64,000 bases of DNA from Chryseobacterium gallinarum (GTDB taxonomy: Bacteria; Bacteroidota; Bacteroidia; Flavobacteriales; Weeksellaceae), in assembly GCF_001021975.1 (NCBI RefSeq), contig NZ_CP009928.1, positions 62,001-126,000 of the forward strand, in the 5' to 3' direction. A program made the translations under genes and the position numbers. This document shows, one piece after another, positions 17,129 through 56,129 of this stretch. The notes under the pieces are model-generated. The model worked only from the letters and a program-made list of their open reading frames with translations. It was not told the origin of the DNA and ran no database searches. Within the stretch, counting starts at the first letter, position 1; the number at the start of each line of letters is the position of its first letter.

Positions 17129-17139
17129 AATAGATAATT

Positions 17140-17358: not shown

Positions 17359-17375
17359 TTGTAAAACGCAAGAAT

Positions 17376-18533: not shown

Positions 18534-18544
18534 AAAAAAGAAAA

Positions 18545-19246
18545 ATGGAAAATACAATAAAAAACTACGGACAACTTTACCATCCCTCTGCCATGCTTGT
18601 TTTCTATGAGGGGGAAAATCAAAAACAGGCTTATGTGGAACATTTTTCATTTGATTTCTATGGTTTGCCACACAATGCCCACCCTTTAACGGTTCAGGAA
18701 GCGGCAGAGCTTAGCAAAGCACTGGTGACGAATGACGTTAGCAGAAATTTCCTTAGCCAAAAGCTACTGCCTACTGAAATTCTTCATCTTGACCCAATCC
18801 ATTCAAAAGTTATCTGGTATAGCAAAGCACAGATAAGGGATCTGCATTTTTCAAAAGGTCTTGGTTTAACGGATGGCCCTGCCCATGTCCCCGCAATGCT
18901 GTGGATAGCAGACAGAAAAAAGCTTAATGTTTATGCCTTAAAAAGTAACAAAAGGCCCACCCTCACCACCGAGATTTATCATGCCCCGTTCTTCAATCTG
19001 TATGAAAATGGAAATGTCTGCATGGGAACAGTGAATGTCGATCAGGACAATACGGACACCGTCGTATTGTTTATAAAAAAATGGGAACAATATTTTTTTC
19101 ACAGCAATTTCAGCCATCTTATTGCAGGTCACAACCCGATTAAAGGGAACTGCATTCAGCTATGGGAGAACCTTATTTCCACAGGGGAAAAGTTCCCGAC
19201 TGAATTACTCATTAAAACAGGCTTTAAACTCAATGATCTATTGTAA
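18545..19246 (+). CDS. PRTRC system protein B, E2-like
   Basis: 233 aa. PRTRC protein B has been grouped with prokaryotic E2-like proteins (family knowledge). The sequence supports this: YHAPFFNLYENGNVCMGTV around 145-163 resembles the E2 active-site region (HPN...G.VC), with Cys159 as the likely thioester residue. The N-terminal half (Ala-Met-Leu-Val-Phe strands, then QEAAELSKAL helix) fits an alpha/beta fold. The stop codon overlaps the ThiF start by one base at 19246, so E1 and E2 homologues are translated together. Likely accepts the ubiquitin-like protein C; unproven. Confidence 0.88.
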   Translation: MENTIKNYGQLYHPSAMLVFYEGENQKQAYVEHFSFDFYGLPHNAHPLTVQEAAELSKALVTNDVSRNFLSQKLLPTEILHLDPIHSKVIWYSKAQIRDLHFSKGLGLTDGPAHVPAMLWIADRKKLNVYALKSNKRPTLTTEIYHAPFFNLYENGNVCMGTVNVDQDNTDTVVLFIKKWEQYFFHSNFSHLIAGHNPIKGNCIQLWENLISTGEKFPTELLIKTGFKLNDLL

Positions 19247-20052
19247 TGGAAACAAAAATCAAAGTTCATTTCTTGGACAACGAACTGATGCATGCAACCA
19301 ACCCTATCCGTATCAATGTAATCGGGGCAGGAGGTACGGGCTCCAAGGTAATCACCGCTCTGATGGAGCTTAATCTGAGCCTGATGGCTCTCGACCATCC
19401 GGGCATAGATGTGCATCTATGGGATAACGACATTGTGGAACAACCAAACATTGCACGTCAGCGTTTTGCCCAGTCCGAAATAGGACTTCCAAAAGCAATC
19501 GCACTCATCAACCGAGCAAACAGGTGGACTGGCTCAAACTGGAAGGCACATGTGCTGAAATTTGAGCGTGACAGATTGAGCGGGATTCCCCAACACGCAC
19601 AGGCATCTGTTTACCTTTCATGTGTAGATAATGTACAATCACGTTTCGATATTGCTGATATAATATCAAATGTAGATACGGGTTACATACAACGTGATAT
19701 TCCAAAATATTGGATGGACTTCGGAAACACAAAGCAGTCGGGACAGGTTATCCTTTCTACCGTTGGAAATATTGAGCAGCCTACATCCAATAAATTTATT
19801 CCGGTAAACAGTATGCCCTTTATTACAGACCAGTACGGGGATTTGCTCATAGAATCCCAAGAGACTGATAAAACACCAAGCTGTTCCGTTGCCGAAGCAC
19901 TCGAAAAGCAAGACCTTTATATCAATTCAACACTGGCCAACATGGGATGCTCCCTTCTTTGGAACCTACTCAGAACCGGAATGATAGAAAATCGTGGATT
20001 CTTTGTGAACTTACAAAATTTCAGGTCCCAACCCATTCCCGTAGGCAGTTGA
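19246..20052 (+). CDS. PRTRC system ThiF family protein, E1-like
   Basis: 268 aa. The nucleotide-binding loop is GAGGTGSK at 27-34 (NVIGAGGTGSKVITALMEL). The E1-type metal/adenylate residues appear as WDNDIVEQPNIARQRF (Asp60, Asp62, Asn68, Arg71), followed by CVDNVQSRFDI near 126-136. Cys213 in TPSCSVAEALE is placed where E1 enzymes carry the thioester cysteine. ThiF/E1 proteins adenylate the C-terminal glycine of a ubiquitin-like partner; the obvious candidate is PRTRC protein C in the same operon. The 3' end runs into a GC-rich hairpin region. All key positions look intact. Confidence 0.92.
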   Translation: METKIKVHFLDNELMHATNPIRINVIGAGGTGSKVITALMELNLSLMALDHPGIDVHLWDNDIVEQPNIARQRFAQSEIGLPKAIALINRANRWTGSNWKAHVLKFERDRLSGIPQHAQASVYLSCVDNVQSRFDIADIISNVDTGYIQRDIPKYWMDFGNTKQSGQVILSTVGNIEQPTSNKFIPVNSMPFITDQYGDLLIESQETDKTPSCSVAEALEKQDLYINSTLANMGCSLLWNLLRTGMIENRGFFVNLQNFRSQPIPVGS

Positions 20053-20306: not shown

Positions 20307-22025
20307 TTACACCTCTTCTGTATTCAATTCATTTTTAAGATTGTGTAAATATTGGCTAAACGATATGCCGTTTATTTCGCTGAAAAGTGCTGAAAAATTT
20401 GTCCGTGAAGCAATTCCACAGTGTTTTGCTAACGATGCACTATTGTATTTACGGTATAGAGGATCGTGACGCAACTTTTCCGTAATATAATGTATTCGTA
20501 GTTCACTTAAATATCGGTTAAAACTCGATCCCTTATGCTCATTGATTACATGTGAAAGATAATTGGGATTAACATCAAATTTCTTTGCTAAATTCTTGAG
20601 ATCAGTTTTGGCCTGAAGAAACTCTTCGTTCATTTCAAATCCGGCTAGCTTTCTCAGGATATCTTCGACAACATCTTTTCCAAGATCTGTAGGCTTATAA
20701 TGTCTGATTCTAAAAGTTCCGGTCGGAGCTAAATTTAGGGAACTTCCACTAAAATGTATTCCCATAAAACTGTTTTTCCCAAATACCTTTTTTCTTGATC
20801 TGACCCATATGACCCAGTAGCAGACAAAAATGATTATTGAAAAAGCAAGGCTGAGCCAGATCCAGCCTCTAACAGCTACTTTCCTTTCTAATTGTATTTT
20901 TTCTTGCAAAAGCCGCTGGGTATCATATTCTTTCTGGATCTTACTGGAAAGGTATCTGAAATCTTTCTCCATGATCTTATCAGCCTTGATAAGTTGCATT
21001 GTATAATAAAGGGCTGTAGAAAAATCATTCCTTTCCCTATAATAGGTAATCAGTTCTTCGTAAATATCTCTTACTTCGGGAAGCAAGAATGAATGTTTAG
21101 TAAAAATTGAGTCAATCTTTTTATAATTCTTTATGCCTTCCTCTTCATTTCCCAGTTTCCAATGTGCTTTACCTAAATAGGCATAGGATACCGACACCCA
21201 GGCAAAGTCATTAACGGCTATAAGAGCAGGCAAGGAACTCTTAAGCGATTTGATTGCGGCAGCGTAATCCCTGTTGCGGTAATCCCTTATACCAGCTTCT
21301 TTTATATAATAACTATATTCCTGCCTATAATCTGGATTTTTCCATGTGTTTGCCATCCCGAGAGCAACTAATGAATCTGCTTTCTTGAAATGATATAGAT
21401 TTCGGTAGCATACAGTCATTTGATGCAGTGTGTTATTATAGCCGCGTTGATTGCCATACATAACGTTAGGATGCAGATCTTTCTTGATTTCATTTTCAAA
21501 AAATCCTCTGGCCTCTTCAAAATTGTCTAAAGCATCGCTATAATAGCCAATATAACTTTTCATGACCCCAATATGGTAATTGATCTTATTTCGGTAATAG
21601 GGATCTTTGTTGTTTTTATTCTTTTCAAATGCTTTTAAGTATTGATTGAGTGCAAGATTGTACTTTTTCAGATAGAAATAATAAACCACTCCTTTGCTCA
21701 GGTAGGCACTGCTTATCAGACTGTCATTTTGTGTTTTTGTAGCAACATAAATTGCACTATCCGCATACTTTAGTTTCACATTCGGATCGGGAGAATAGTA
21801 TCTTGCATCTGTATAACCAAGATACAACTGCATTGGATTTTTTTCATTTTTTGCTTTTTTGATCAGTTTCTCAACAAGAGGTAATGCAGTGGAGTCATTT
21901 TCAACCCTGGTCTCGTACTGCCTCTGAAGCAAATAAAATTCACTCAAGTTTTTCTTCTGCGCAAATAATGATTCACACAGATAAAGTAATATGATTGACA
22001 GAAAACGAATAAATAGATGGTTCAT
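20307..22025 (-). CDS. TPR sensor with membrane segment and AraC-type HTH output
   Basis: 572 aa. Signal peptide-like start (FLSIILLYLCESLFAQ), then about 350 residues of TPR-like helices (ALNQYLKAFEKNKNNKDPYYRNK, AYLGKAHWKLGNEEEGIKNYKKI). One transmembrane segment lies near 396-418 (WLSLAFSIIIFVCYWVIW). A cytoplasmic AraC-type HTH follows at about 465-565 (AKKFDVNPNYLSHVINEHKG, SLAKHCGIASRTNFSALFSE). This layout, periplasmic TPR sensor to cytoplasmic HTH, is common in Flavobacteriia regulators. Divergent from the lipoprotein-MauE-peptide genes with 386 bp between, so it probably controls them. The ligand is unknown. Confidence 0.9.
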   Translation of the reverse strand: MNHLFIRFLSIILLYLCESLFAQKKNLSEFYLLQRQYETRVENDSTALPLVEKLIKKAKNEKNPMQLYLGYTDARYYSPDPNVKLKYADSAIYVATKTQNDSLISSAYLSKGVVYYFYLKKYNLALNQYLKAFEKNKNNKDPYYRNKINYHIGVMKSYIGYYSDALDNFEEARGFFENEIKKDLHPNVMYGNQRGYNNTLHQMTVCYRNLYHFKKADSLVALGMANTWKNPDYRQEYSYYIKEAGIRDYRNRDYAAAIKSLKSSLPALIAVNDFAWVSVSYAYLGKAHWKLGNEEEGIKNYKKIDSIFTKHSFLLPEVRDIYEELITYYRERNDFSTALYYTMQLIKADKIMEKDFRYLSSKIQKEYDTQRLLQEKIQLERKVAVRGWIWLSLAFSIIIFVCYWVIWVRSRKKVFGKNSFMGIHFSGSSLNLAPTGTFRIRHYKPTDLGKDVVEDILRKLAGFEMNEEFLQAKTDLKNLAKKFDVNPNYLSHVINEHKGSSFNRYLSELRIHYITEKLRHDPLYRKYNSASLAKHCGIASRTNFSALFSEINGISFSQYLHNLKNELNTEEV

Positions 22026-22166
22026 GGCTAGTATAATGATAAATTTAAGAAAAAAATCGACATAGCAGATAATTCACCTAAACTTCCAAAAGTTTCGATT
22101 AACAACTTTATCAAGCTATTGATTTTCAACATTATAATTAAATTAATAAAATAATTTATATCACTG

Positions 22167-22203
22167 TCCGAGGAAACAAATACACTTCCGAGGATTTCCG
22201 ATA
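22167..22203. repeat. Direct repeats TCCGAGGA, period 20 bp
   Basis: TCCGAGGA occurs at 22167-22174 and again at 22187-22194; TCCGATA follows at 22197-22203, half that spacing further on. About two helical turns separate the full copies, the layout expected for tandem binding of an AraC-type protein. The divergent TPR-AraC sensor is the natural candidate. Confidence 0.5.
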
Positions 22204-22377
22204 CACAAAAAACGCAAGCTCGAATTGCTATTTTTTTTATAGCACTAAAACTCCTTATTCTTTCATTCCATTACATAAGATAAGATGCCATTAAATCCGT
22301 TTGTCCGTGTGTATTCTGATACCCCAAACTGTTTTAACATGACGCTAAGACTGATAATTTGGTCAACAGAATTCATC

Positions 22378-22393
22378 ATCTCGGCGCCGAGAT
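22378..22393. promoter_or_regulatory. 16-bp perfect palindrome, candidate operator
   Basis: ATCTCGGC/GCCGAGAT is a perfect 16-bp dyad lying 18 bp upstream of the lipoprotein ATG. It is GC-rich in an AT-rich region. It could bind a dimeric repressor or fold as an mRNA hairpin over the leader. Confidence 0.5.
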
Positions 22394-22411
22394 AATCCTA
22401 AAAAATTTATC

Positions 22412-22675
22412 ATGAAAAAAACAACGGTTATCTCAATTACGATAATGCTCTTCTCCTTTTGCGCGCTACAAGCATGCAGGGAGTATGAAATGGATATTGA
22501 GCCAGATCATGGGAATCAGGCAAGTAAAGAATATCGACAGAGAATGTATCAAAAAATCGAAGCTGATTCGGTCAAAGCACCAGTTCTGTATTTCGATGGC
22601 AAGGAAAACCAGGTGGCAGATCCGCCTCCAAAAGATAAGGATCAATGGAGATACAAAAGTGACAAAGCTTTTTAG
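22412..22675 (+). CDS. Small lipoprotein of the first MauE locus
   Basis: 87 aa. MKKTTVISITIMLFSFCALQ then ACR: the LQAC lipobox puts the lipid on Cys22. The mature part (about 65 residues) is very polar, with no further cysteine, and ends KDQWRYKSDKAF. It starts 18 bp after the palindrome and is the first gene of a plus-strand unit leading to the MauE-like protein. The 153-bp gap to that gene holds no other start of note. Function unknown. Confidence 0.7.
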   Translation: MKKTTVISITIMLFSFCALQACREYEMDIEPDHGNQASKEYRQRMYQKIEADSVKAPVLYFDGKENQVADPPPKDKDQWRYKSDKAF

Positions 22676-22828
22676 TACAGTGTCCATAAGGTTTCTGAGA
22701 CTGCAAATGCTTGCATTTGATCTCAAAGGCAGTATAAATTTGAAGAAATCGAAATTAGGAAGCAGATTTTGGGCAAATCCAATTAGCGGCTGCCTTTCAG
22801 CTTATAACAACAACTAAATAACCAAATC

Positions 22829-23269
22829 ATGAGAATTAAGAACATCGTTGCTGAATCGACCATATTTATACTCATTCTTGTATGGGCATTTACCTTCGTG
22901 AGTAAAGTTCTGGATTTTGACACTTTTGCCCGTCAGATTAAAGGCGCATACCTTTTGTCTGCAGCTGGAGCTATCCTCCCTTACCTTTTACAGGTTGTCC
23001 ATGTTGGTATTGTTATCCTCCTTTTGAACAAGAGCTGGAGAAGGATGGGGCTTCTGGTTTCATTATCGGTCATCATTGCCTATACAGCTTATCTGATCTA
23101 TATCTTAAAATTTGCACCAAGCATCCCATGCTCTTGCATAGCCGTGCTTAGAAGTATGAACTGGACCGATCAGTTGTATTTCAACTCTGGTGTGCTTGCA
23201 ATTAACCTCATTGGCCTGATTACTTTCTCTTCGTTAAGACGAACCTCACACAGCATTCAGGCCACTTAG
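22829..23269 (+). CDS. MauE/DoxX-type redox-associated membrane protein
   Basis: 146 aa with four predicted membrane helices (about 8-26, 46-66, 73-93, 118-136). A Cys-Ser-Cys motif follows helix 3 at 101-103 (SIPCSCIAVL). The protein lines up with the N-terminus of the second locus's MauE protein: SKVLDFDTF against SKVLDFENF, and PCSC at nearly the same position (100-103 against 106-109). MauE of the methylamine dehydrogenase cluster is needed, with the thioredoxin-like MauD, to form the disulfides of the small subunit. Here a small Cys protein follows 100 bp downstream and a TlpA thioredoxin gene converges on it. A disulfide-handling role is therefore a reasonable inference. Confidence 0.82.
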   Translation: MRIKNIVAESTIFILILVWAFTFVSKVLDFDTFARQIKGAYLLSAAGAILPYLLQVVHVGIVILLLNKSWRRMGLLVSLSVIIAYTAYLIYILKFAPSIPCSCIAVLRSMNWTDQLYFNSGVLAINLIGLITFSSLRRTSHSIQAT

Positions 23270-23369
23270 ATTAAAATTAATATCTAAACTACAGGGGAAG
23301 CCGAAAACCTGAATCCAGAGTAGGCAAAAAACTAAAGTTTAGCTTTTTGATTTAAAAAGCACCAACATC

Positions 23370-23639
23370 ATGAAAAATTTAAGAGTAACAGTAGGAATTG
23401 CAGCCCTTGCAATTGGAAGTTTCGCAGCATTCTCTTTTGCTCCGGCAAGTAGCTATGCAAAAGTGGCTTTACAAGAATTTTACGTGAATCCTGACGGTTC
23501 ACGAGGACCTCAGGTTATTGGCGAAAATAAATGTTATGAATCTACAGATGATCTTTGTTCGCAGGAGTACAATACCACTACGGGGCAACCGACTAATGAT
23601 CCGAATAAAATGCACTACGGAGTACGTCCAAACAATTAA
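23370..23639 (+). CDS. Small exported two-cysteine protein
   Basis: 89 aa. Signal peptide 1-30 (VGIAALAIGSFAAFSFAPASSYA, cleavage after AYA or nearby). The mature chain of about 60 residues has exactly two cysteines, Cys-x8-Cys in NKCYESTDDLCSQEY, fitting a single disulfide. It resembles, in size, signal and setting, the DUF6520-type protein of the second locus (56130-56378), though sequence identity is low. It is next to the MauE-like gene and converges on the thioredoxin gene. Possible substrate of these redox proteins; not proven. Confidence 0.75.
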   Translation: MKNLRVTVGIAALAIGSFAAFSFAPASSYAKVALQEFYVNPDGSRGPQVIGENKCYESTDDLCSQEYNTTTGQPTNDPNKMHYGVRPNN

Positions 23640-23647
23640 TGTAATTT

Positions 23648-23677
23648 CAGCCATATCTAGGATATGGCTGACTTTTT
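23648..23677. terminator. Bidirectional terminator between convergent genes
   Basis: CAGCCATATC (23648-23657) pairs perfectly with GATATGGCTG (23661-23670), loop TAG, followed by ACTTTTT on the plus strand. It lies between the stops of the small Cys protein (plus) and the thioredoxin gene (minus). Confidence 0.85.
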
Positions 23678-23692
23678 AATGCATATATATAA

Positions 23693-25135
23693 TTACAATA
23701 ATTTTTCGACAAATTTTATAAAGTCTGCTTTTCTGGATCTTGGTTCCGGAGGCGCTTCCGCAATTTTACCCTCTTTATCAACAATAATTAGTCGCGGATA
23801 AGCAGAAATATTTAGATATTTCATCATTGGATGGTCCTTGCTTTGCCCTTCAGTATACAACTGTAAAGAATTGATACTGGAATACTTACCGATGCCTTCT
23901 AACCATAACCTTCTTTTATCAATTCCAATGGAAATAAATTGAACGTTCTTACCTTTCAATTCGTTTTCAGCCTGTTCTAAAGCAGGAACCATTAATTTAC
24001 ACCCCCCACATCCGTTATACCAGAAGTCTATCACTAAAACTTTTCCCTTAAAATCAGTCAACTTATGAATAGTTCCTGTGGAGTCCGGCAAAGCAAAATT
24101 ATAAAAGGGTTTCCCTGCAGCAAATTTCTTTTCGGTATTTTCATAAAGTTTAACAACTCCATTGTAATTAGGATTATTAAAATCTGCATTGTCACAATAA
24201 TATTGATATAGCTTTGTCGTCGTTGAATCAAAACCTCCCCTAATGCATGTCCACAAATGGTCTGATAAAAGATAATCCCTGATTTCAGGATATTTTTTAA
24301 GTCGCTTTACAAGAATTTCCGCATAACGAATCTTATGTTTTTTTTCGAAATCGTCAGCGCCGACAGTGACTGGATTTCTAAACTCCGATAAGATCAGATA
24401 CGACCCTATGGTTCTTCCATATTTTACCACATCCTTTTTAAAGAAAACATCCATTCGATTCTTAGAAACGATATATTTATCAAATAACGACCGGAGAGAA
24501 TCACTTTCGCTACGCTTACTTGATCTAAAAAGCATTGTCATCATTGTTCCATACATTTGTGCTTTTAACAAATCTTTAATATTTGAAGGTACAGTTTTAT
24601 CTCTGCTTAGCATCGAGTCAACTACACTTAATTTTTTATCGGTGGTTTCATATTTGTAGGTTATACTCTGTTTAGCATAGTCTGGGTCTTTCGCATAAAT
24701 TTCAAGACATTTGCCCATAGCCTTCTTGAACAAGTTTAGTTTCTCGCTTCCCTTTCCACTAACGTTAACTTTCCCAATTCCCCATCCGAAAAAACCCACT
24801 TCTTTTATCGAAGGAACATCAAAAGTCAGGTCATCATTTGGTTCAACCAAAACAGCGTAATCGCCTGGCATGGTGACGTATTTGTTATTAATAAGCAAGT
24901 AAATGTAACTTGTATGTTTGATATCAAAGGTAAATTGGCATTTTCCGTCCTTAATTACAGCGGTGTCCCTGTAATATTTTGAATCTAAATTAAGCATAGG
25001 GTCTAATATGCCTATTGTTGCTCGCAGCTGTGTGGTATCAACCTGCGGAATATTAATAGTTATTTTTGTATTGCCCTGTGCAAAAGTGCAAATGCCGTAC
25101 AAAAGCGAGATTAAGGTTATTATTATATTTTTCAT
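23693..25135 (-). CDS. TlpA-like thioredoxin with large N-terminal domain
   Basis: 480 aa from the ATG at 25135 (an ATG at 25147 would overlap susD by 11 bp). Signal peptide NIIITLISLLYGICTFAQ. Residues up to about 350 form a beta-rich then helical domain usual for Bacteroidetes TlpA/AhpC-type proteins. The C-terminal thioredoxin domain carries FWYNGCGGCK, active-site Cys-Gly-Gly-Cys (Cys376 and Cys379 counted from this start), and the cis-proline segment ISAYPRLIIVDKEGKI. Periplasmic disulfide reductase or isomerase is the likely activity. It is the last gene of the sigma-FecR-SusC-SusD operon and converges on MauE and the two-cysteine protein, matching the MauD/MauE pairing known from methylamine dehydrogenase maturation. 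Confidence 0.88.
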   Translation of the reverse strand: MKNIIITLISLLYGICTFAQGNTKITINIPQVDTTQLRATIGILDPMLNLDSKYYRDTAVIKDGKCQFTFDIKHTSYIYLLINNKYVTMPGDYAVLVEPNDDLTFDVPSIKEVGFFGWGIGKVNVSGKGSEKLNLFKKAMGKCLEIYAKDPDYAKQSITYKYETTDKKLSVVDSMLSRDKTVPSNIKDLLKAQMYGTMMTMLFRSSKRSESDSLRSLFDKYIVSKNRMDVFFKKDVVKYGRTIGSYLILSEFRNPVTVGADDFEKKHKIRYAEILVKRLKKYPEIRDYLLSDHLWTCIRGGFDSTTTKLYQYYCDNADFNNPNYNGVVKLYENTEKKFAAGKPFYNFALPDSTGTIHKLTDFKGKVLVIDFWYNGCGGCKLMVPALEQAENELKGKNVQFISIGIDKRRLWLEGIGKYSSINSLQLYTEGQSKDHPMMKYLNISAYPRLIIVDKEGKIAEAPPEPRSRKADFIKFVEKLL

Positions 25136-25136
25136 G

Positions 25137-26492
25137 TTATTGTTCATTTTGGGTAATCCCGTTAAAATTTATAATAAATTGAGGAATTGGCAGCACATAC
25201 CGTGGATCTCCTGCAGGTAAGCTATAGGTCTGATCACCGATGGTTCTTGTAAGTGTTTTAGCGTACCGAGGATCACGATTTAATCTTTTTAGGTCTTGCC
25301 ACCGGAGACATCTGGTCAGCAGCTCTTTTCTTCGTTCACTTAAAATAATGTCTAATGTTTCATTAGCGGTTCCAGCATAATAAGGTACAAATTGTCCTGT
25401 CTTAAATCTTTTTTCCAATAATATATTAAGTTGATGTATTGCGCCTTTACTATCCCCAAGTCTGGCTCTAGATTCAGCACCAATTAGTAAAATTTCTGGC
25501 GTCGAAGTTCCCGAAAAAAGCGCAGCTCTGTAATGTCCCTTGAAAGAATATCTTCCGTCTGTTTCTTTTTTAAAGAACAGTACTTTTCTCAGATCATTAC
25601 CATCGTAACTGTTATAGAGATCCTGATTGATCCTACCGACCGTAGCATAGCCAACACTCATCCTGGGGTTCAATGGAATATGCATTTCTTTGCTCTGAAT
25701 ATTTAAAGGACGAGATGCAGCAGGATTTAAAGCATTATAATCTTCAATATAATTATGATACTTATAGCTTGAATCGGCAGCATTTTTTGCATCTCTAAAA
25801 TTATCCATGTAAAGGTAAGAGCGTGCCAATAAAGCAAACGCTCCACCTTTTGCGATGTGGGTTGCTGATAACTTTTCAATAGGTAGAATTTCCGAAGCAA
25901 TGAGCAGATCCTGAACAATTCTTTGATAGGTTTCTTCCAAAGTGGACCTAAAAATTGGCTCTTCGATGTCATCAGTTAGCTTAAGTGGAATACCTAAATC
26001 ACTCGTCGAACTCCTAGCGTCATAATACTTACAAAAGGTCATCGCTAAATTTAGAAATTGCCGTGAACGATGATAGAGTGCTGTACCTTTTATACGATCA
26101 TACAGCTCTTTATTGTTTTCGTCTCGTACAATCTTATCGAGTCCGGTCAGAACAACATTACAAACCTGAATCTGACTGTAAGCGATATTCCATTCATTCT
26201 GATTTGTTGAAAGTTGCTCAAATTCTGTAACGGTCCATGTTGCCAAATTCCGCTGAAAAGGGAATGGTAAAGCATTAAACTGTGCTAATGTATAATCTGC
26301 TTCATCGGAACCGTTTTCCGTCGAACCACGGCCATCCTGTTCAAATGCTGAGGTGTTTAACAACAGGTCAAAATCGTTCAATGTTGTGGGAACAATAAGT
26401 TTGATGTCCTGTTTTTCTTCAAGCCATTCCTTGGAACAGGAAGTAAGAATAATAAGAATAACACATGAATAAATAGTAAATATCTTTTTCAT
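25137..26492 (-). CDS. susD: SusD/RagB family nutrient-binding lipoprotein
   Basis: About 451 aa from ATG 26492, which begins the signal peptide MKKIFTIYSCVILIILTSC (lipobox LTSC). The upstream ATG at 26516 would overlap susC. SusD features: the N-terminal EKQDIKLIVPTTLNDFDLLLNT, TPR-like helices with LARSYLYMDNFRDAKNAADSS, and the C-terminal LSERRKELLTRCLRWQDLKRLNRDP block. It sits as a lid over the SusC channel at the cell surface. Part of the five-gene minus-strand operon. Substrate is unknown; no glycosidase is nearby, so a non-glycan ligand (peptide?) is possible. Confidence 0.93.
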   Translation of the reverse strand: MKKIFTIYSCVILIILTSCSKEWLEEKQDIKLIVPTTLNDFDLLLNTSAFEQDGRGSTENGSDEADYTLAQFNALPFPFQRNLATWTVTEFEQLSTNQNEWNIAYSQIQVCNVVLTGLDKIVRDENNKELYDRIKGTALYHRSRQFLNLAMTFCKYYDARSSTSDLGIPLKLTDDIEEPIFRSTLEETYQRIVQDLLIASEILPIEKLSATHIAKGGAFALLARSYLYMDNFRDAKNAADSSYKYHNYIEDYNALNPAASRPLNIQSKEMHIPLNPRMSVGYATVGRINQDLYNSYDGNDLRKVLFFKKETDGRYSFKGHYRAALFSGTSTPEILLIGAESRARLGDSKGAIHQLNILLEKRFKTGQFVPYYAGTANETLDIILSERRKELLTRCLRWQDLKRLNRDPRYAKTLTRTIGDQTYSLPAGDPRYVLPIPQFIINFNGITQNEQ

Positions 26493-26503
26493 AATTTTAA
26501 TTC

Positions 26504-29500
26504 TTATAGTGTGCAATTAAGTCCAAAAGAAAAACTCCGTATAGGCTTCGAATTTGGATAATCCGGATCTATATAATCAACCTTAGTTGATTTCCACAAA
26601 ATACCTAGGTTGTTTGCCAAAAGAAAGAGTTTTAAGCTTTTTACGCCAACGTTTCTTAATTGACGTGCGGTAAAATCGTAGGAAATTACAAGATCTTGCA
26701 ATCGGATATGATCACCTTTTTCGACTAATGTCTCCGAATATCTATAGTATTGGTCAGCGAGACTATTTGCCGGATACAACATTGCAGGAACATTTGTGAA
26801 TGATTCATCTCCAGGCTTTTGCCATCTGTGATAATAATCCCCATGACCATAATAATTGCTATAGAGTCCAGAGTAAGAGACACTATTCCTTCTAAAATAA
26901 TAGCCCAATCGATAGGTTATATTAAAAGAAAGCTCAACTCTTTTATAATTGAACGTATTTCTTAATGCGCCAAAGTGAGTGGGTAACGCATTCCCATGAT
27001 AAACAAGATTATTCTCAGGGTCCTGACTTAAATATTGCTTTATTAAAGTATATTCGGCAGAAGGCTGGTTTTCAAGATACCCTTTTGCCTGACCAGTTTC
27101 CGGATCTAACCCCGCCCAGGGGTATGAGTAAATTCCAAACAGTGGTCTACCAACAACTGGTGAATAGGCAGATGCATTTCGGTAAATGCTGTTATCGGTA
27201 ATAAAATTATCAATGGTAGTTGACCTTTGGTATTTCATTACTTTATCCTTGGCTAAAGAAAATAGCGCAACAGTTTTCCAAGTAAAATCTTTATACTGTA
27301 AATTCGTAGAATTGATTTCTATATCTACACCTTTCCCTTTCATATCTGCAAGATTACCCCTAAAGGAGATAAATCCGGTTGTCGGATCTAATGGTCCATT
27401 ACCGATGAGATCAGTACCTTTCCTGTTGAAATATTCTACGCTGCCAGATATGCGATTGTTTTTTGTTGCAAAGTCCACTCCCATATTCCACATTCTGTTC
27501 TTTTCCCACCTTAGATTTCTATTGGGAGGATTAAGTAAATAGGCTGCTGGCATCTGATTGATGCTATTGCTAGAAAGTTTAGCAGTTGTGTACGCCGTAA
27601 TACTTCGATCCAGATTACCACTATAGCCGAAGGTAGATCTTAGGCTCAAAGAAGATAGCCAGTCCAAATGAAAAAATTTCTCTTTATCAACATTCCACTT
27701 TCCACCGACCGACCAAAGAGGAACGGATTTTTGGTTTGTATTTACACCAAATAAATTTGACTGGTCAATACGTGCGCTAGCCGACAGGATGTAACGAAGG
27801 TCGTAATTGTATGCTCCGTTAACGTAATATGACCGCATTCGGTCCAGCGTTTCGGTGTAGTCATTACCAGTAGCAATAGAAGCCTGACCACCATTTCCAT
27901 ATAGAGAAAATTGAGTTAGATAATCTACCATAGTACTTGAACCGACGTTTGGATCGAAACCATACATTCTGCTTGAATTTCCTGTAATTTTTGCCTCTCT
28001 AACTTCAAATCCAGCAATAGCATTCAATTGATGCTTATTCCATTTCTGATCAAAATTGATTTGAAATCTACCGTTTATTGAATTTAATTGAGAATGACTG
28101 TTGTCCAACATACCTCCTAATGGTATATTTCTCTGTACTGCACCATTATCAATAGACGTATATAGATTGATCAGATTTCGCATAAAATAACTTTGCTGGT
28201 CATAGTAATTCCGTCCATTTCCAATTTGGTTCTCATATTGCAATCTTGCCTCCGCAGATAAAGAAGGAAAGATTGAATATTTGATAGCAGTATTTAAGCG
28301 AATCTCAGATTGTTTTGATTTGTTATCCTGATAGTTCAGTTCATCCAGCGGAACAAAATCCCAGTTTAACAATCCTTCCGAAAGTGCTTTTTGCTTCAGC
28401 ACGGTACTATATTCTTTGATAACAACTGCAGGATCTCCAGTGTTATCAACAAGTCGTGCATACGGATACATCAACTGCTGTCCCATATTGCTAAGCATGG
28501 AAACCACGTTAGATATAGATTGAGAATTTTGGTTGTAGGAAAGTGCAGCTGAAAGCTCCAATTTTTCATTAGGGCGAAAGACCTGATTGCTGTTTAAACT
28601 TACCCGACTAAAACCGCTCTCCTTTTCTGAATTTTGGTTTTTGTCGTAACCTGCTGAAAAATAATAGGTATATTTATTTGTGCCACCGTTAAGATTTATG
28701 GCGTACTGCTGCTTTAGAGCTGGTCTGTAAAGATATTTGCTCATATCATCCCGCAGATTGTATTGCCTCAACGCGTCAATCCGGTTTGTAGCCTGTTGTT
28801 CTGTTAGCTTTCCGTTTCTTTGGTCATTTAAAATACTGACCACTGGCGAGTATGGGTTATTGGATGCTGTATTTCCGATCACGTCGTCATAAAATCCCTT
28901 TTCAAACAGCATTTTCTCAATATCAATGAAGTCCGTGGGTTTGATCTGGGGAATATAGTTCAGATCGGGCTTCTGCCCGATAGTAACATTGGCAGTAAAC
29001 CCAATGTTTATGGGCTGGTCTGCTCGTCCTTTTTTCGTTTTTATGACGATCACACCATTGCCGGCACGTACTCCCCAGATGGAAGCTGCAGCAGCATCTT
29101 TCAGAATGTCAATATCCTCTATGTCGTTGGGATTAATATTGTTGATGTCTCCTTCATACGGAAAATTGTCGACAACGATAAGTGGCTGGTCGTTTCCGAA
29201 GATTGTAGCCTGTCCTCTGATCGTTAATTTCGGAGAACCTGAACGCTCATCAAATAATATCGAAGGAGCGATACCTTTCAATCTGCTGATCACATCGGTG
29301 GATACCTGCCTATTGAATGTCGCATTGTCCACTTTGGAAAAAGACCCCGTGGCCCTCTCCCTTGGGATCGACTGATAACCACTGGCAACGACAGAAACCT
29401 CTTCGATTCTGTTGGAATTTGTTGTCAGTACAATCCTATCCGCATCCTTTGCGGCTACCTCAGTTTGACTAAAGCCTAAGTAAGAAATTTGCAATTCAGA

Positions 29501-30034
29501 TTGAGCATATTCGTCGGGAAGCTCAAAAGATCCTGAATTGTCCGAAGTTGTGATAAAATTGGTGCCTTTAACTTGGATCGTAGCACCAGCGAGGGGCTGC
29601 CCTTTTTCGTCAAAAACTCTGCCCCTGACTGGATCTGTTTTTTCGGGGTTCGCTGGTGCTGCCTTTTTGGGCTGTTTTTTTTCTTTGAGTATGATTGTAC
29701 CGTCTATGATTTCATAGATGATGTCCTGTCCGGACAGAAGCTGCTGCAAGGCTTTTTCAAACGGCACATTATTGAATTCAGCGGTCACGGGCTTTTTATC
29801 CCGAAGGAGCCTATCATTATACGCAAAGTCATAATTCGTCTGTTTCTTGATGCTCTCGATAGCTTTGGACAAAGGTGCCTTCTTCAGGGACAGGTTAATG
29901 GACTGTGCACTGACCTCGTATGGGTAATGCAGTCCCGAGGCCAAAAGAAACAGCAGTAACACTCTTTTGACCTTTTGCCTATTCTTTGGACCGGTGGTGT
30001 ATAATAGGCGTTGTTTAAAAACATGATTATTCAT
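26504..30034 (-). CDS. susC: SusC/RagA family TonB-dependent outer-membrane transporter with STN domain
   Basis: 1176 aa from ATG 30034, which directly precedes a leader peptide (VLLLFLLASGLHYPYEVSAQ). The ATG at 30085 would add 17 odd residues. N-terminal STN domain (about 45-125, SLKKAPLSKAIESIKKQTNYDF), then a CarboxypepD-reg-like domain (GRVFDEKGQPLAGATIQVKG). The plug follows (PNDIEDIDILKDAAAASIWG, GNGVIVIKTKKG), then a beta-barrel to the C-terminus. The STN domain receives the FecR signal, so import and the sigma factor are linked (transducer type). The ligand is unknown. Overlaps the antisense RNA called at 30047-30125. Confidence 0.95.
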   Translation of the reverse strand: MNNHVFKQRLLYTTGPKNRQKVKRVLLLFLLASGLHYPYEVSAQSINLSLKKAPLSKAIESIKKQTNYDFAYNDRLLRDKKPVTAEFNNVPFEKALQQLLSGQDIIYEIIDGTIILKEKKQPKKAAPANPEKTDPVRGRVFDEKGQPLAGATIQVKGTNFITTSDNSGSFELPDEYAQSELQISYLGFSQTEVAAKDADRIVLTTNSNRIEEVSVVASGYQSIPRERATGSFSKVDNATFNRQVSTDVISRLKGIAPSILFDERSGSPKLTIRGQATIFGNDQPLIVVDNFPYEGDINNINPNDIEDIDILKDAAAASIWGVRAGNGVIVIKTKKGRADQPINIGFTANVTIGQKPDLNYIPQIKPTDFIDIEKMLFEKGFYDDVIGNTASNNPYSPVVSILNDQRNGKLTEQQATNRIDALRQYNLRDDMSKYLYRPALKQQYAINLNGGTNKYTYYFSAGYDKNQNSEKESGFSRVSLNSNQVFRPNEKLELSAALSYNQNSQSISNVVSMLSNMGQQLMYPYARLVDNTGDPAVVIKEYSTVLKQKALSEGLLNWDFVPLDELNYQDNKSKQSEIRLNTAIKYSIFPSLSAEARLQYENQIGNGRNYYDQQSYFMRNLINLYTSIDNGAVQRNIPLGGMLDNSHSQLNSINGRFQINFDQKWNKHQLNAIAGFEVREAKITGNSSRMYGFDPNVGSSTMVDYLTQFSLYGNGGQASIATGNDYTETLDRMRSYYVNGAYNYDLRYILSASARIDQSNLFGVNTNQKSVPLWSVGGKWNVDKEKFFHLDWLSSLSLRSTFGYSGNLDRSITAYTTAKLSSNSINQMPAAYLLNPPNRNLRWEKNRMWNMGVDFATKNNRISGSVEYFNRKGTDLIGNGPLDPTTGFISFRGNLADMKGKGVDIEINSTNLQYKDFTWKTVALFSLAKDKVMKYQRSTTIDNFITDNSIYRNASAYSPVVGRPLFGIYSYPWAGLDPETGQAKGYLENQPSAEYTLIKQYLSQDPENNLVYHGNALPTHFGALRNTFNYKRVELSFNITYRLGYYFRRNSVSYSGLYSNYYGHGDYYHRWQKPGDESFTNVPAMLYPANSLADQYYRYSETLVEKGDHIRLQDLVISYDFTARQLRNVGVKSLKLFLLANNLGILWKSTKVDYIDPDYPNSKPIRSFSFGLNCTL

Positions 30035-30041
30035 ATTTTTG
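30011..30041 (+). promoter_or_regulatory. Predicted promoter of an antisense RNA over the susC start
   Basis: TTG (30011-30013), 20-bp spacing, TATTTTTG (30034-30041). This fits the Bacteroidetes -33/-7 pattern on the strand opposite susC. The -7 box overlaps the susC start codon, so an A-rich leader could mimic it by chance. Confidence 0.45.
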
Positions 30042-30046
30042 CTGTT

Positions 30047-30125
30047 AGGGTTAAAAATCTGTTTGTTGCAAAATAGTAGACCCATTGGAGCTGGAGTGCT
30101 ACGAACACCCCAGCTTCTTTTTTTT
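30047..30125 (+). ncRNA. Predicted cis-antisense RNA of the first susC (DonS-like)
   Basis: From the predicted start near 30047 to the T run is about 79 nt. It ends in the hairpin AGCTGGAGTG / CACCCCAGCT (30089-30098 and 30106-30115) followed by TCTTTTTTTT. It lies in the FecR-SusC gap, antisense to the susC leader. Bacteroides loci of this type carry cis-encoded repressor sRNAs in the same position (DonS class). The second locus has a matching element at 49051-49134. Confidence 0.45.
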
Positions 30126-30149
30126 GGGCCAACATATGAAACTAATTAA

Positions 30150-31310
30150 TTACTCTCTGATGCGTAACCTCCTTCCCTTCATTTCAAACTGGATATCGGT
30201 TGCTTTTTCGAGTATCTGCAGGACACTGCTCAGCTTTTTGTCTCTTTTTAGCGATGCACTGACCTCAAGACCGGTAGCCATAGTGCTGTAGTCGACTTCT
30301 ATATCATACCAGCGCTCAAGCTGGCGCAGAACCTCACCCATTGAAGCACTCCGGAAACTGAACTCATTTTCAGTCCAGGCGGTATAGGGTTCTGTATCAA
30401 GTGTGTTGACATCAAATCTGCCGCTGGTATAGATGGCCTGCTGCGAGGGTTTTAATAACAACGTTGTTTTATGGGCTACATCGCTCAGCTGCACACTTCC
30501 TTCCACCAAAGTGGTCAGGATATAGGGCTCATTGTTGTACGCATTGATGTTAAATCGTGTACCCAGAACTTTGACCTCCTGCCCGCCCGTGATGACAATA
30601 AATGGTCTAGTCTTATCATGCTCCACTTCAAAGTAGCCTTCTCCTGTAAGTTCGACCAATCGTTTATCCTGCGGAAACTGAGCTGGATATTTTAGCGAGG
30701 ACTCTGCATTGAGCCAGACTCTGGTGCCATCTGCCAGCGTTATTTTGTACTGTCCTTTACGTGGTGTGGATAGTGTGGCATATTTCATGGTATTTGAAGC
30801 GACTTTGGTGCCGTCCGCATACAAGACTGCGTCACCCTTAACGGTGACGGCCTGATGGGTAAGCTCAATTGTTTTTCCATCATCAAAAGTTAGTGTCGCC
30901 TGATCTTTACCCGGTAGTATATCTTCTGCGGATGAAGACGCTGTGACCGTTGGCTTGCTATTATTAATGCGGAAATCAAGGTATAGCATTACGGAAATGG
31001 AAACGGCAAGTAGGATGGCAGCCGCAACAAGCCAACGTTTCCAGTGTGATGCAGATCTGTGCATATTCAGCATAGTATGCAGCATGTGGAGGTTATCCTC
31101 GGTTTTTGATTGAGCGATATCAAAATTTACTAGATTTTGGGCTACCTGCTGCTGATTCTGAAGTTCCTCAAAGACTGCCCTATTATGCGCATTCTTATTG
31201 ATCCATATTTCAACAGCCTTGCTTTCCAGTGTGGACAGCTCCTCCCCCTGTACCAATTTGCTCAGAAGTGGGACAATTGTCAGTTCGTCAAAAAATTGTT
31301 GCTCTTCCAT
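30150..31310 (-). CDS. FecR family anti-sigma factor
   Basis: 386 aa. The cytoplasmic N-terminal sigma-binding part (1-90) precedes one transmembrane helix (WKRWLVAAAILLAVSISVMLYL). A periplasmic FecR domain follows (KGQYKITLADGTRVWLNAESSLKYPAQF, GEGYFEV). The C-terminal DUF4974/STN-like module ends FRSASMGEVLRQLERWYDIEVDYS. It holds the adjacent sigma factor until the SusC STN domain signals ligand binding. Encoded 69 bp after the sigma gene. The 115-bp gap to susC contains the antisense terminator hairpin. Confidence 0.94.
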   Translation of the reverse strand: MEEQQFFDELTIVPLLSKLVQGEELSTLESKAVEIWINKNAHNRAVFEELQNQQQVAQNLVNFDIAQSKTEDNLHMLHTMLNMHRSASHWKRWLVAAAILLAVSISVMLYLDFRINNSKPTVTASSSAEDILPGKDQATLTFDDGKTIELTHQAVTVKGDAVLYADGTKVASNTMKYATLSTPRKGQYKITLADGTRVWLNAESSLKYPAQFPQDKRLVELTGEGYFEVEHDKTRPFIVITGGQEVKVLGTRFNINAYNNEPYILTTLVEGSVQLSDVAHKTTLLLKPSQQAIYTSGRFDVNTLDTEPYTAWTENEFSFRSASMGEVLRQLERWYDIEVDYSTMATGLEVSASLKRDKKLSSVLQILEKATDIQFEMKGRRLRIRE

Positions 31311-31379
31311 CGGCTCCTTTTAATATAGAAACCGGAAAGCATATAGGTTTGTCCAAAAGAAATTGAAAAAAAGAAAATA

Positions 31380-31964
31380 TTAGAAGTATAGTAGTAAAAG
31401 TGCGATCCCAGCACCAGAAAGGCGGTTTCTCAGAATAGAAATTGCTCTTGCCTTTTGACTGTTGACGGTACTCACCGTAAGTGAAAGTTCCTCTGCAACT
31501 TCTTTGGCAGTTTTACCCTCCATTAACTGCGTCATAATGATCCGGCATTGTTCAGGCAGCAGCTCGATTGCCTGATAAAGTTCCCGATAGACTTCGGAGA
31601 GTACAATCTGGCTCAGGATATTGTTGTCGTCAGACTCGTTAAAATTTGATGTATAACCATCAAACCTTTTTAGGCGCACCTTCTCCTTTTCTATCGCATT
31701 AAAACAGGAATTTTTTGTCGATATATACAAAAATGCCTTGATACTGTTCAGGGATTCAAATGTCTCTCTTTTCTCATGAAGTTTCACAAAGATATCCAGA
31801 ACGATCTGCTGGGCATCGATTTGGTCAAAATTTACAAAAAGCCTCTTCGCAAAGAAGATTAATGAAGGATGGTAAAGACGGAAAATTTTATCAAAAGCAT
31901 GTTCTTCACCGCTTACAAAACTTTTTAGCAGTGCCCTTTCATCGATCACATTCGGGGTTATCAT
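31380..31964 (-). CDS. ECF RNA polymerase sigma-70 factor, Bacteroidetes type
   Basis: 194 aa. Region 2 (FDKIFRLYHPSLIFFAKRLF, QQIVLDIFVKLHEKRETF) and region 4 (LPEQCRIIMTQLMEGKTAKEVAEELSLTVSTVNSQ) are both clear. FecI-like factors of this group switch on the neighbouring susC-susD operon when released by FecR. First gene of the first locus operon; divergent from a small membrane protein. Only region 4's recognition helix is expected to bind the -35-like element. No consensus autoregulatory site was identified. Confidence 0.94.
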   Translation of the reverse strand: MITPNVIDERALLKSFVSGEEHAFDKIFRLYHPSLIFFAKRLFVNFDQIDAQQIVLDIFVKLHEKRETFESLNSIKAFLYISTKNSCFNAIEKEKVRLKRFDGYTSNFNESDDNNILSQIVLSEVYRELYQAIELLPEQCRIIMTQLMEGKTAKEVAEELSLTVSTVNSQKARAISILRNRLSGAGIALLLLYF

Positions 31965-32938: not shown

Positions 32939-35900
32939 CTATTCAAATTTCTTTCTTGGAAGTCCAATTTCATGTTCCTGAGGATAAGGTAGTCTAAAAG
33001 TCATACTGACATCTTCCTTAATCCTTTGCTGGGCTTCATATTTCTTTTCTTCATCATGGGAATATCTCGGATCAGAGATAAAAGGCATCTTTGCCATCTT
33101 AGTGATCGTAATGGTTGGAAAATGGAAATCTACTTCCACTATACCAAGCAACAGATAACAGCCTCCCCCCTGGAAGGGATATTTTTCAAGACAGTCGGGA
33201 AAGTGCGCGGTATCAAAATAGTCACCGTTCACATCGATCCAGGTCCCGAAGTACATCGTTCCTCGTTTTGTAGGCACATGTTTTCTGGAAATTAGATAAG
33301 CCAGCATCTTGACCTGTTTTTTATGGTGATCCGTAAGATCTTTGGCCATGACAGTACCCCTGTATTTTGTTTTTAACAGATCAAACGGCGTACAGGAAAC
33401 AGGAAAACTAAGTATCTCGATTTCATCGAAAGCATCTTCAAATACATTCCGTTTCAGCTCAGGAAATTTAAACTCTTTTACTGGTTCATCGAATAGTGCC
33501 TCGAATCTTCGCTCCGATTTATAATCGCCAAGAAGGATTCTCGCCTTTAACAGCAATTCATTTTTGGTGACACCACTAAAACGGAATGCACCGATAAAGA
33601 TAAGCGTCTGTAGCGTTTCAATGCCAATTGGAATCCGTTTGATAAAATCTTCCAGTGATTTATAATCACCGTTTTTCCTCCTTTCCTCAGGAATCAGCTG
33701 GGCAATCTTTGATTCCACTTTTTCCAAAAGCATCAGACCTAGGTAAATCTCATCGCCATAAAGTGTCGTTTCATATTCACTTTTGTTTACACATGGATTC
33801 AAAATCCTTCCACCCGACATTCTGGCTTCATGCACGTACACCTCGGTCCTATAGAAACCGCCCATATTGTTGATGGCACAGACCATAAACTCTAGGGGAT
33901 AATAAACCTTCAGGTATAAGCTTTGATAACTCTCCACCGCATAGGAAGCTGAGTGGGCTTTGCAGAATGAGTATCCGGCAAAAGATTCAATCTGTCTATA
34001 AATTTCCCTGCTCAGCTCCTCTGGATGCCCTTTCTCCCTGCAAGATGCAAAAAAATGATCCTTAACCTTTTGAAGTGCACTTAATGACCTACCTTTTCCT
34101 GACATTGCTCTTCTGAGAATATCTCCATCAGCCGCTGAAAGCCCACCATAATGCAAGGCAATCTTGATGACATCTTCCTGATATACCATGATGCCATAAG
34201 TCTCCCCTAGCTGCTCTTCAAAAACTGGATGAAAGTACTCGAATTGATCCGGATTGTTGTGCCTAAAAATATATTCACGCATCATCCCGGATTGGGCTAC
34301 CCCCGGACGGATGATAGATGAGGCAGCAACTAGAACTTTGTAATTATCACATTTCAGCCTTCGGAGAAGACCGCGCATAGCGGGTGATTCGATATAGAAA
34401 CAGCCAATTGTCCTGCCTTGGCTCAAATACTCATTACATTTTTGCTCATCCTTGGACAGGGTCGTATCCTTAATATTTACTTTAATTCCTTTTTTCTCTT
34501 CGATAAGCTTAACGGTATCGTTGATCGTTCCCAGACCTCGCTGGGAAAGGATATCGAATTTCTCAAAACCGATGTCCTCTGCAACGTGCATATCCCATTG
34601 TACAATAGGGAAACCTTTGGGTGGCATCTCCAAAGCTGTGAAATTGATCAACGGTTCTTCTGATATTATAATACCACAAGAGTGCATGCTCCGCTGGTTT
34701 GGAAATTTTTCGAGAAGCTTTCCATATTTCTGTACTTGTTTTACAATATCGTCGCGAAATACCCGTTCTGGATTTTTACTCAGCTCATCGAGCTCTTCTT
34801 TCGGAAGGCCAAAAGCCTTTCCTACTTCACGGATAATAGATCGATATTTGAACTCAACATTTGTCCCACAGAATGCCACGTACTCTTTTCCGTAACGGTT
34901 GAAAATATAATCAAGGATAATATCACGCTCCTGCCATGACCAATCTATGTCAAAATCAGGCGGGCTTTTCCGGTTTTCATTGAGGAAGCGCTCAAAGTAC
35001 AGATCAAGTTCAATGGGACAAATATCGGTAATACCCAAGCAATAAGCTACAATTGAATTAGCTCCACTCCCTCGCCCCACATGCATAAAGCCCATAGAAT
35101 TGCTATACCTAATGATATCCCAGGTGATCAGAAAATAACCACTGAAATTCAGCTCATTGATCACTTTTAGCTCCTTTTCTACACGTTTACCAGCCTTTTC
35201 ATGATTCCTGCCATACCTTCGCTCCAATCCTGCATAGGCTAATCTGGTCAATAGTTTTAGATCATCTGCTTTACTACCTGTATAATACTTTCTATTTCGG
35301 GGCACATCGAATGAAAACTCAAAACTACATTGTGACAGGATCTTTTCTGTATTTTCAATAATCTGCGGAAAATTCTTGAAAGCATCCAACAGATCCTGTG
35401 GAGGCCGAAAATACTCTGACTTCCGGCACACTTCATTTTCCGCTAATTTTGATAACAGCACGTTGTTATCGATTGCCCTTAAAATCCTGTGCAGATTATA
35501 TTCCTTTTTTGTAGTAAATGTCACCGGATAAAATATCACCATTTTTGGAATCAGCTTTTTTAATTCGGGACGGATAAGCAGATTCAGTTCTTCTTCGCAG
35601 ATACCAATAAATTCATTTTCCCTAAGAGCTTTAGGAACATTACTCAAGGGATACACGATGAAATTATGTATGGTTTGAGGCTGTAAAGGAAGATCAGTTC
35701 CATGACAATTATAGGCTGTCAACAGTTTGTTGATTTCTCCCAGCCCTTCAAACTCCTTTGCAATACAGACATACAGTAACTTGTTTTCTTTTCTGACCTC
35801 AATGCCCACGATGGGTTTAATTCCATGCTCCTCACATTTTTTCTTGAATTCATAGACTCCGGTTACGGTGTTGATATCGGTAAGCACAATTTCCTTGATC

Positions 35901-48079: not shown

Positions 48080-48169
48080 AATAAGTTAATATCAGTTAAA
48101 TTTTGTTAATTTCCATATTTTCAGCGGGGGATTTTCAATGTTCCCAGGTAAATGTAATAAAGACCTGTT

Positions 48170-48997: not shown

Positions 48998-49050
48998 TGG
49001 TTTAAGTCCTTATTACTCCTGCCGTGATCCCTGATACATAAAAATGGCTG

Positions 49051-49134: not shown

Positions 49135-49146
49135 CAATGCAAAAAT

Positions 49147-52233: not shown

Positions 52234-52244
52234 AATTCTTAAAA

Positions 52245-53606: not shown

Positions 53607-53608
53607 TA

Positions 53609-56124: not shown

Positions 56125-56129
56125 CTTAA

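Follow-up and report, generated by a model that had tools for sequence, protein, structure and literature searches.

Among the gene clusters described so far, those closest to the loci considered here include the isopeptidase-type lasso peptide clusters of Proteobacteria (AtxE2, SpI-IsoP), which, in the available part of PMC9266682, encode a peptide together with a TonB transporter, a sigma/anti-sigma pair and a prolyl-oligopeptidase (POP) type peptidase, which has an N-terminal propeller and cleaves the cognate peptide. Here we describe a window of 64,000 nucleotides from Chryseobacterium gallinarum (bases 62001-126000 of the 4.63 Mb contig NZ_CP009928.1) that holds two look-alike gene clusters, locus 1 (20307-31964) and locus 2 (47561-58861), both carried by one CTnDOT-type conjugative element. 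The two clusters belong to a widespread system that combines a tiny exported cysteine protein (mini-protein hereafter), a matching outer-membrane importer made of SusC and SusD (SusCD) and an enzyme that could open the mini-protein, the whole possibly serving as a private peptide signal or scavenger.

The POP-type peptidase, the TonB transporter and the sigma/anti-sigma pair are all present in locus 2, and because locus 2 has this functional set of the isopeptidase lasso clusters we favour a reading in which the mini-protein is the cargo of SusCD. In that reading, to which we give a probability of roughly 0.43, the exported mini-protein would be oxidised by the membrane protein MauE, would serve its own SusCD importer as cognate ligand and would be opened by S9 cleavage or TlpA reduction. 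The cassette differs from the lasso clusters in its disulfide mini-protein with a Sec-type signal, in SusD and MauE and in its location on a conjugative element; furthermore the S9 peptidase of locus 2 scores 52 bits against the NCBIfam lasso_peptidase model, far under the cut-off of 400, and Pfam scans of the 17 cassette genes of the window revealed no lasso maturation enzymes (leader protease, cyclase domains).

A second point of comparison is methylamine dehydrogenase (mau), in the maturation of which MauE and MauD take part, MauE being speculated to form its disulfides, as stated in the available text of PMC7794033; the same text places MauE genes in Streptomyces candidate peptide clusters (decRiPPter) with Cys-rich precursors. 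The original prediction had likened MauE, the TlpA-type thioredoxin and the small Cys protein to the mau set. The likeness holds for MauE itself, as both window proteins match the family PF07291 (77 and 101 bits), and one cassette subtype has a TlpA-like partner. Beyond MauE it is not supported: the small proteins have 2-4 Cys, no Trp among their conserved columns and hence no light chain of the tryptophan tryptophylquinone (TTQ) type, and for the propeller found in locus 2 DUF4221 and NHL propellers are the best fold matches.

The cassette shares with SusCD/RagAB peptide-uptake loci a SusC/SusD pair accompanied by a peptidase or thioredoxin, and differs from them in carrying its own exported candidate ligand and MauE. 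The SusC/SusD pair is also shared with glycan utilisation loci, but unlike these the 17 cassette genes gave no match to carbohydrate-active enzymes in Pfam scans. The mini-protein of locus 2 belongs to DUF6520 (PF20130), with a score over the cut-off of 25.4, as does MauE of both loci to its own family; the mini-protein of locus 1 scores below the DUF6520 cut-off. In the open-access literature searched we found no published description of the cassette and no paper on DUF6520 or on NVEALA (PF14055), a family found in 4 of 390 genomes and without a match in the source genome at E 0.001.

In one distant genome (L262:476-14153) an alternating array of NVEALA mini-proteins and three families of six-bladed propellers (DUF4221, DUF5128, TolB_like) also includes signal peptidase S26. 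Like the cassette, this array sets a small Cys protein that is exported next to a six-bladed propeller, and DUF4221 is one of the top fold hits for the MauE-fused propeller; the array differs from the cassette in that the 15.5 kb of this locus had no match to the cassette MauE, SusC, SusD or S9 profiles. Judging from this single locus, mini-protein and propeller may be an older pair that was later joined by MauE and SusCD.

Conservation of the arrangement

The main survey covered 148 genomes of the same family as the source and yielded at least 94 loci, these being the strongest MauE matches among those listed, with frames of 353-412 amino acids (BT_3928-like by length) left out. Up to 20 kb was fetched per MauE locus, gene labels being counted anywhere in the stretch, and at 74 of the 77 loci with at least 19 kb both SusC and SusD are present. 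The typical map has a divergent TPR-AraC regulator, then lipoprotein, MauE and mini-protein genes in one direction, onto which S9, SusD and SusC (or SusD, SusC and TlpA) converge. Within the family there are 75 DUF6520 matches in 48 genomes, and 68 of them lie on the same strand as, and downstream of, a strong MauE (among the MauE matches listed) within 2 kb, with midpoints 486-1952 bases apart; 67 of those 68 MauE frames are longer than 400 amino acids, that is, fused to a further domain. For the other seven no MauE was listed on their contig.

Across the phylum DUF6520 was found in 27 of 395 genomes. For the 31 DUF6520 loci outside the family, where the labels leave out sigma, FecR and the TlpA of locus 1, MauE lies upstream in 29 and SusC and SusD are present in 28; the exceptions are L208 and L217, with neither MauE nor SusCD, and L225, at a contig end, with SusD only. 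Loci of the type of locus 1 were found on 12 genome contigs from Chryseobacterium and Sphingobacterium, and all 12 have MauE, mini-protein, TlpA, SusD, SusC, FecR and sigma ordered as in the window, apart from two extra open reading frames (ORFs) in L261 and a TlpA that is split in two in L255 and L257. The TPR-AraC gene is in place in 11 of the 12, a labelled lipoprotein in nine, and PRTRC genes lie in the flank of six.

A genome-neighbourhood check had been set beforehand as one that could refute the original prediction, and it found the MauE and Cys-protein genes commonly beside SusCD (74/77 loci in the family, 28/31 in other families and 12/12 of the locus-1 type). The conserved layout supports the earlier suggestion of selection for the arrangement, and the linkage counts likewise support the tie between a Cys-bearing exported protein and SusCD. 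We regard the cassette as a conserved system with a strong pattern and a plausible function. The twin loci probably recur together, since nine contigs longer than 20 kb, matched by their length, are common to the 118 locus-2 MauE and 77 locus-1 mini-protein matches listed, with organism names that agree for eight of the nine.

Some genomes hold several such loci: G121 has six, with five clearly different mini-proteins, and G092 and G124 have four each. In L099, L137, L140 and L147 the mini-protein gene is present in two tandem copies behind a single MauE-propeller.

Two subtypes of the cassette

The choice of the putative opening enzyme follows the form of MauE. For the 77 loci with at least 19 kb, an S9 peptidase is present in all 65 with a fused MauE, and TlpA in 11 of the 12 with an unfused MauE, the twelfth (L087) being without SusC. 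When all 94 loci are taken, no S9 match was found in the 17 unfused ones, and the 77 fused ones contain a single TlpA-like ORF, at the far edge of the L075 stretch beyond AraC. The pairing is repeated outside the family, where 20 S9 loci are all fused and five TlpA loci all unfused, four loci having no labelled enzyme. In most loci of the family that have TlpA, its gene is upstream of SusC; in locus 1 it comes behind SusD.

The mini-proteins divide in a similar manner. Those of the 77 fused loci have 4 Cys in 58 cases, 2 in eight and 5 or 6 in two, with no small ORF picked in nine; the count of 6 comes from the ORF of the window itself, which has 4 Cys with the likelier start. All 17 unfused loci have 2 Cys, L146 being a doubtful ORF.

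Covariation and sequence variability

Covariation was measured as the correlation (rho) of pairwise identities between loci. From the 77 fused loci, 53 with all parts intact were retained, 45 of them after removal of near-duplicates, 30 with both TPR-AraC and RteC and 28 with the lipoprotein too. Across the 45 loci the mature mini-protein correlates with SusC (0.62), SusD (0.64), the two parts of S9 (0.56 and 0.59) and the propeller (0.66), as against 0.28 with its own signal peptide and 0.26 with the membrane part of MauE, and these differences remain above zero in 70% subsamples. Windows of the fused protein correlate with the mini-protein at 0.22-0.39 where they cover the membrane part and at 0.35-0.69 where they cover the propeller.

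In the 30 loci the propeller, mature mini-protein, S9, SusD and SusC form a block with internal rho of 0.70-0.85. The mature mini-protein reaches 0.70-0.76 with the rest of the block vs 0.05 with AraC and 0.02 with RteC; these two correlate with each other (0.51) and with the block at most at 0.19. The lipoprotein, in the 28 loci, goes with AraC (0.58) and RteC (0.46), its values being -0.08 to 0.06 with the specificity block and -0.01 with the mature mini-protein. As covariation is high within the blocks and low between them (-0.08 to 0.19), it seems from these sequences that there are two evolutionary blocks, and that a specificity cassette is swapped as one piece over a regulatory part that belongs to the element itself. 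The split inside the MauE-propeller would reflect either swapping at this junction or a tighter constraint on the membrane part. The original prediction had counted the AraC regulator and the lipoprotein as part of the Cys-protein/SusCD unit, whereas they co-vary with RteC instead.

The median identity of the mature mini-protein is 25%, vs 48% for its signal peptide, and in the 53 fused loci only the Cys, a G-Y, a Thr and a Leu of the mature part reach 70% conservation. The S9 triad and the CSC motif of MauE are invariant in the same 53 loci.

Gene content of the two loci

Gene identities were taken from the ORF listing and Pfam scans of both loci, which bear out the earlier gene-by-gene description and its coordinates. 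Locus 1 opens with a TPR-AraC membrane regulator (20307-22025, minus strand; HTH_18/HTH_AraC over the Pfam cut-off, TPR_12 below it), in which an N-terminal hydrophobic segment, the TPR part, an internal hydrophobic segment and the AraC helix-turn-helix follow one another, with hydrophobic 19-mers at 4 and 388. On the plus strand come a small lipoprotein with a lipobox-like Cys and a C-terminal PPPKDKDQW tail (22412-22675), an unfused MauE, a redox membrane protein (22829-23269; PF07291 77.1 bits against a cut-off of 27, CSC motif in the alignment), and the exported 2-Cys mini-protein (23370-23639; CX7C, precursor of 89 amino acids, PF20130 17.0 bits), which has 81 relatives and whose C55 and C63 are invariant among 30 sequences. 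The minus strand then carries a TlpA-type thioredoxin with a CGGC motif and a DUF4369-like part (23693-25147; Redoxin, AhpC-TSA and Thioredoxin_8 over cut-off, DUF4369 just below), the surface lipoprotein SusD (25137-26516; SusD-like_3 82 bits), a SusC TonB-dependent transporter with an STN signalling domain (26504-30085; STN, CarbopepD_reg_2 and Plug over cut-off), the anti-sigma factor FecR (30150-31310; FecR 65 bits, FecR_C 61 bits) and an extracytoplasmic function (ECF) sigma factor (31380-31964; Sigma70_r4_2 and r2 over cut-off).

Locus 2 begins on the plus strand with an ECF sigma factor (47561-48079; Sigma70_r4_2 over cut-off), FecR (48170-48997; 52 bits), SusC (49147-52233; Plug 75 bits, barrel 53 bits), SusD (52245-53606; SusD-like_3, SusD_RagB) and an S9 peptidase of the prolyl-oligopeptidase type (53609-56116; Peptidase_S9 86 bits), which has an N-terminal signal-like segment and the catalytic triad S673/D761/H793. 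On the minus strand lie the exported 4-Cys mini-protein of the DUF6520 family (56130-56378; precursor of 82 amino acids with an A-x-A cleavage site, PF20130 32.4 bits), the MauE fused to a beta-propeller (56435-57985; PF07291 101 bits) and an AraC-type regulator without a hydrophobic segment (58106-58861; HTH_18 26.7 bits, E 6.9e-6, below the cut-off of 33.6). The four Cys of the mini-protein are invariant in 18 sequences, and to judge from its relatives a start at 56378 is more likely than one at 56471. The propeller is probably six-bladed and DUF4221/NHL-like, and the named relatives of the MauE-propeller come mainly from Chryseobacterium and Sphingobacterium.

That the two loci have unlike sequences, as first proposed, is confirmed by protein identities of 31% for MauE, 24% for SusC and 21% for SusD (with a weak local score for SusD). 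Homology of the two mini-proteins is not secure, hhalign giving 4.7% for the locus-1 protein against the locus-2 family.

Regulatory genes

Relatives of TPR-AraC occur in 74 of the 94 loci. A lipoprotein ORF, recognised by a lipobox-like Cys and a PP/EP-x-D-x-[WYF] tail, a pattern fixed after the sequences had been inspected, is present in 62: 60 of the 74 loci with TPR-AraC and two of the 20 without. The lipoproteins form a family of ~65-90 amino acids (22412-22675, L071-L164) whose tail is of the PP-[KR]-D-x-x-x-W type and which goes together with TPR-AraC and RteC; the two members scanned had no Pfam match over cut-off.

RteC adjoins at least 40 of the 94 loci among the 150 RteC matches listed, and 51 by our own sequence clusters. 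In 49 of these 51, rteC lies downstream of TPR-AraC in the same direction, 40 of the 49 gaps being 5-57 bp, vs none of 20 rteC loci without a neighbouring cassette, which were picked, mostly as the highest-scoring, and not at random. RteC is also more frequent in genomes with the cassette (48/58) than in the others (33/90), again among the 150 matches listed. As evidence for control of excision the position by itself counts for little, because other rteC genes likewise come after same-strand genes.

Sigma and FecR, which had been seen as a shared part of the design, were rejected as its core, as they are found in four of the 94 loci with the single window proteins as queries; they are a constant of the locus-1 subtype (12/12). 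The STN domain is matched by Pfam in the SusC of locus 1 and not in that of locus 2. Of eight further SusC proteins fetched, the FecR-bearing L143 has it (24.4 bits, below the cut-off of 28.4) and the seven without FecR do not.

Directly downstream of TPR-AraC in L250 (4186-6291) is a VgrG-like spike gene (Phage_base_V, Phage_GPD). ORFs of 680-722 amino acids occupy the same position in eight of the 12 locus-1-type loci, L250 being the one scanned.

The conjugative element

Like other CTnDOT-type elements, the one that carries the two loci has a tyrosine integrase, Tra proteins, a relaxase, a coupling protein and RteC. The integrase (4134-5306, plus strand; Phage_integrase 76 bits, Arm-DNA-bind_5) adjoins mnmE, and PRTRC genes lie at 16505-20052 (PRTRC E and ThiF over cut-off, B just below). 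The Tra genes run on the minus strand (59141-63758) in the order TraQ, TraO, TraN, TraM, TraK: TraQ, TraN and TraM (59141-62423) were identified by TraQ_transposon and DUF4138, with TIGR03779 TraM and TIGR03780 TraN over cut-off, whilst TraO and TraK are presumed from the usual gene order, a Pfam scan of the TraK candidate being without match. Locus 2 starts ~280 bases after traQ, directly downstream of it. Beyond the window are the TraG ATPase, relaxase, coupling protein and RteC of the element, rteC lying ~24 kb past the right end of the window and adjoining neither locus.

In a search for direct repeats at the two ends of the element, no second copy of a 20-base piece from the 3' end of mnmE turned up in the genome, nor was the right boundary located; a 16-base match of window position 3167 in L227 was considered as an element end and is not convincing. 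The available part of PMC5458099 describes a CTnDOT-type element, ICEEa1, whose named cargo is different and in which the cassette is not mentioned. The present element also carries a DnaE-type polymerase and a LigD-type ligase (32939-35986 and 8872-11571), and between the two loci (39788-46099) a protein of 2103 amino acids that by eye is Rhs/YD-repeat-like, with a small secreted-looking protein upstream.

A proposed self-encoded ligand and its alternatives

The mini-protein has ~55-70 residues, 2 or 4 Cys and a Sec-type signal peptide, and from the role of its family MauE would make or reshuffle the disulfides by means of its invariant CSC motif. In the 4-Cys type the fused propeller, as the covariation suggests, may hold the mini-protein or hand it over. 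The mature mini-protein would then act outside the cell, where the cognate SusCD would bind and import it, and in the periplasm it would be cleaved by S9 in the propeller type or reduced by TlpA in the unfused 2-Cys type, a step suggested by the pairing of enzyme and MauE form. The propeller, mini-protein, S9, SusD and SusC would be swapped as a unit onto the RteC/TPR-AraC/lipoprotein block of the element, or alternatively the cassette would bring its own sigma/FecR relay, as in both loci of the window. Such a system might serve for self-recognition, or as a private public good, whether carrier, scavenger or signal, among cells with the same cassette.

Several points weigh against this reading. 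Covariation is no proof of binding, because genes that move together co-vary without contact; linkage by itself might produce the covariation seen inside the block, and all five of its parts may track a ligand from outside. The correlations of the mature part with the signal peptide and the MauE membrane part are weak yet significant (Mantel p 0.002, like the others), noise lowers the value for the signal peptide as it is short, and the membrane part of MauE is more constrained. That the mini-protein leaves the periplasm is a matter of inference, no search aimed at an export route having been made. Its AlphaFold2 model is poor (mean predicted local distance difference test 52.7), the propeller matches DUF4221 and NHL folds equally well, and the ligand cannot be told from structures because the solved relatives of SusC include RagA and several other SusC homologues. 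The number of Cys is not strictly tied to the enzyme, since eight fused S9 loci carry a 2-Cys mini-protein, and the locus-1 subtype keeps residues besides its Cys, e.g. Q65, E66 and Y67.

In an alternative reading the mini-protein would never leave the periplasm, where it would work with the MauE-propeller or TlpA, and SusCD would take up a peptide or glycopeptide from outside, which this assembly captures, oxidises or reduces and S9 degrades, the covariation arising from the shared outside ligand. The linkage and covariation data fit it too, RagA is a peptide transporter, and the NVEALA mini-proteins stand beside separate propellers without a SusCD match in their one locus, so that mini-protein and propeller can occur together without an importer. 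The fused-type mature mini-protein is very variable, however, and keeps little beyond its Cys, a pattern that fits a ligand more readily than the core of an adaptor; we consider this alternative doubtful, though one to be reckoned with. Rather improbable, in our view, is a mating pheromone, in which TPR-AraC would read the mini-protein signal and drive the downstream rteC and hence excision and transfer of the element. The tandem of TPR-AraC with rteC and the enrichment of RteC in cassette genomes speak for it, but the AraC, lipoprotein and RteC proteins show no covariation with the mature mini-protein, and the regulator therefore does not track its sequence; TPR-AraC was for this reason rejected as a specific reader of the mini-protein, despite the tandem. 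Neither the habit of other rteC genes to follow same-strand genes nor the distant rteC of the source genome favours it.

We likewise think it unlikely that the mini-protein is a bacteriocin that harms cassette-free cells and is disposed of in holders by the propeller and SusCD/S9. Such a toxin with its immunity would agree with a Cys peptide that is exported and hypervariable and shares a mobile element with the block co-varying with it, and also with the decRiPPter candidates with MauE mentioned in the available part of PMC7794033. An importer as a part of immunity would be unusual. There is next to no chance that the loci encode an enzyme like methylamine dehydrogenase, with the propeller as heavy chain, a Cys-rich light chain bearing a protein-derived cofactor, and MauE with a TlpA/MauD-like partner for its disulfides: a MauE family protein, a propeller and a small Cys protein do co-occur, but the small protein has only its 2-4 Cys, and the idea of a TTQ enzyme was rejected as the small proteins have no conserved Trp.

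Significance

To our knowledge, secreted peptides recovered by a dedicated importer have hardly been described in Bacteroidota. If the mini-protein is what its own SusCD binds, a self-encoded ligand would be provided for a set of importers of the SusCD type whose substrate is unknown, and a testable function is offered for MauE beyond methylamine metabolism, for DUF6520 and, by analogy, for the NVEALA/propeller pairs. We propose, more tentatively still, that Bacteroidota may have here a new class of ribosomal signal or carrier: hypervariable disulfide mini-proteins on conjugative elements, matured by MauE, each with a co-evolving SusCD and an opening enzyme, for recognition or sharing among cells with the same cassette. 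Given that conjugative elements carry the cassette, such a peptide could determine which elements or neighbours are tolerated by a cell or share in its goods.

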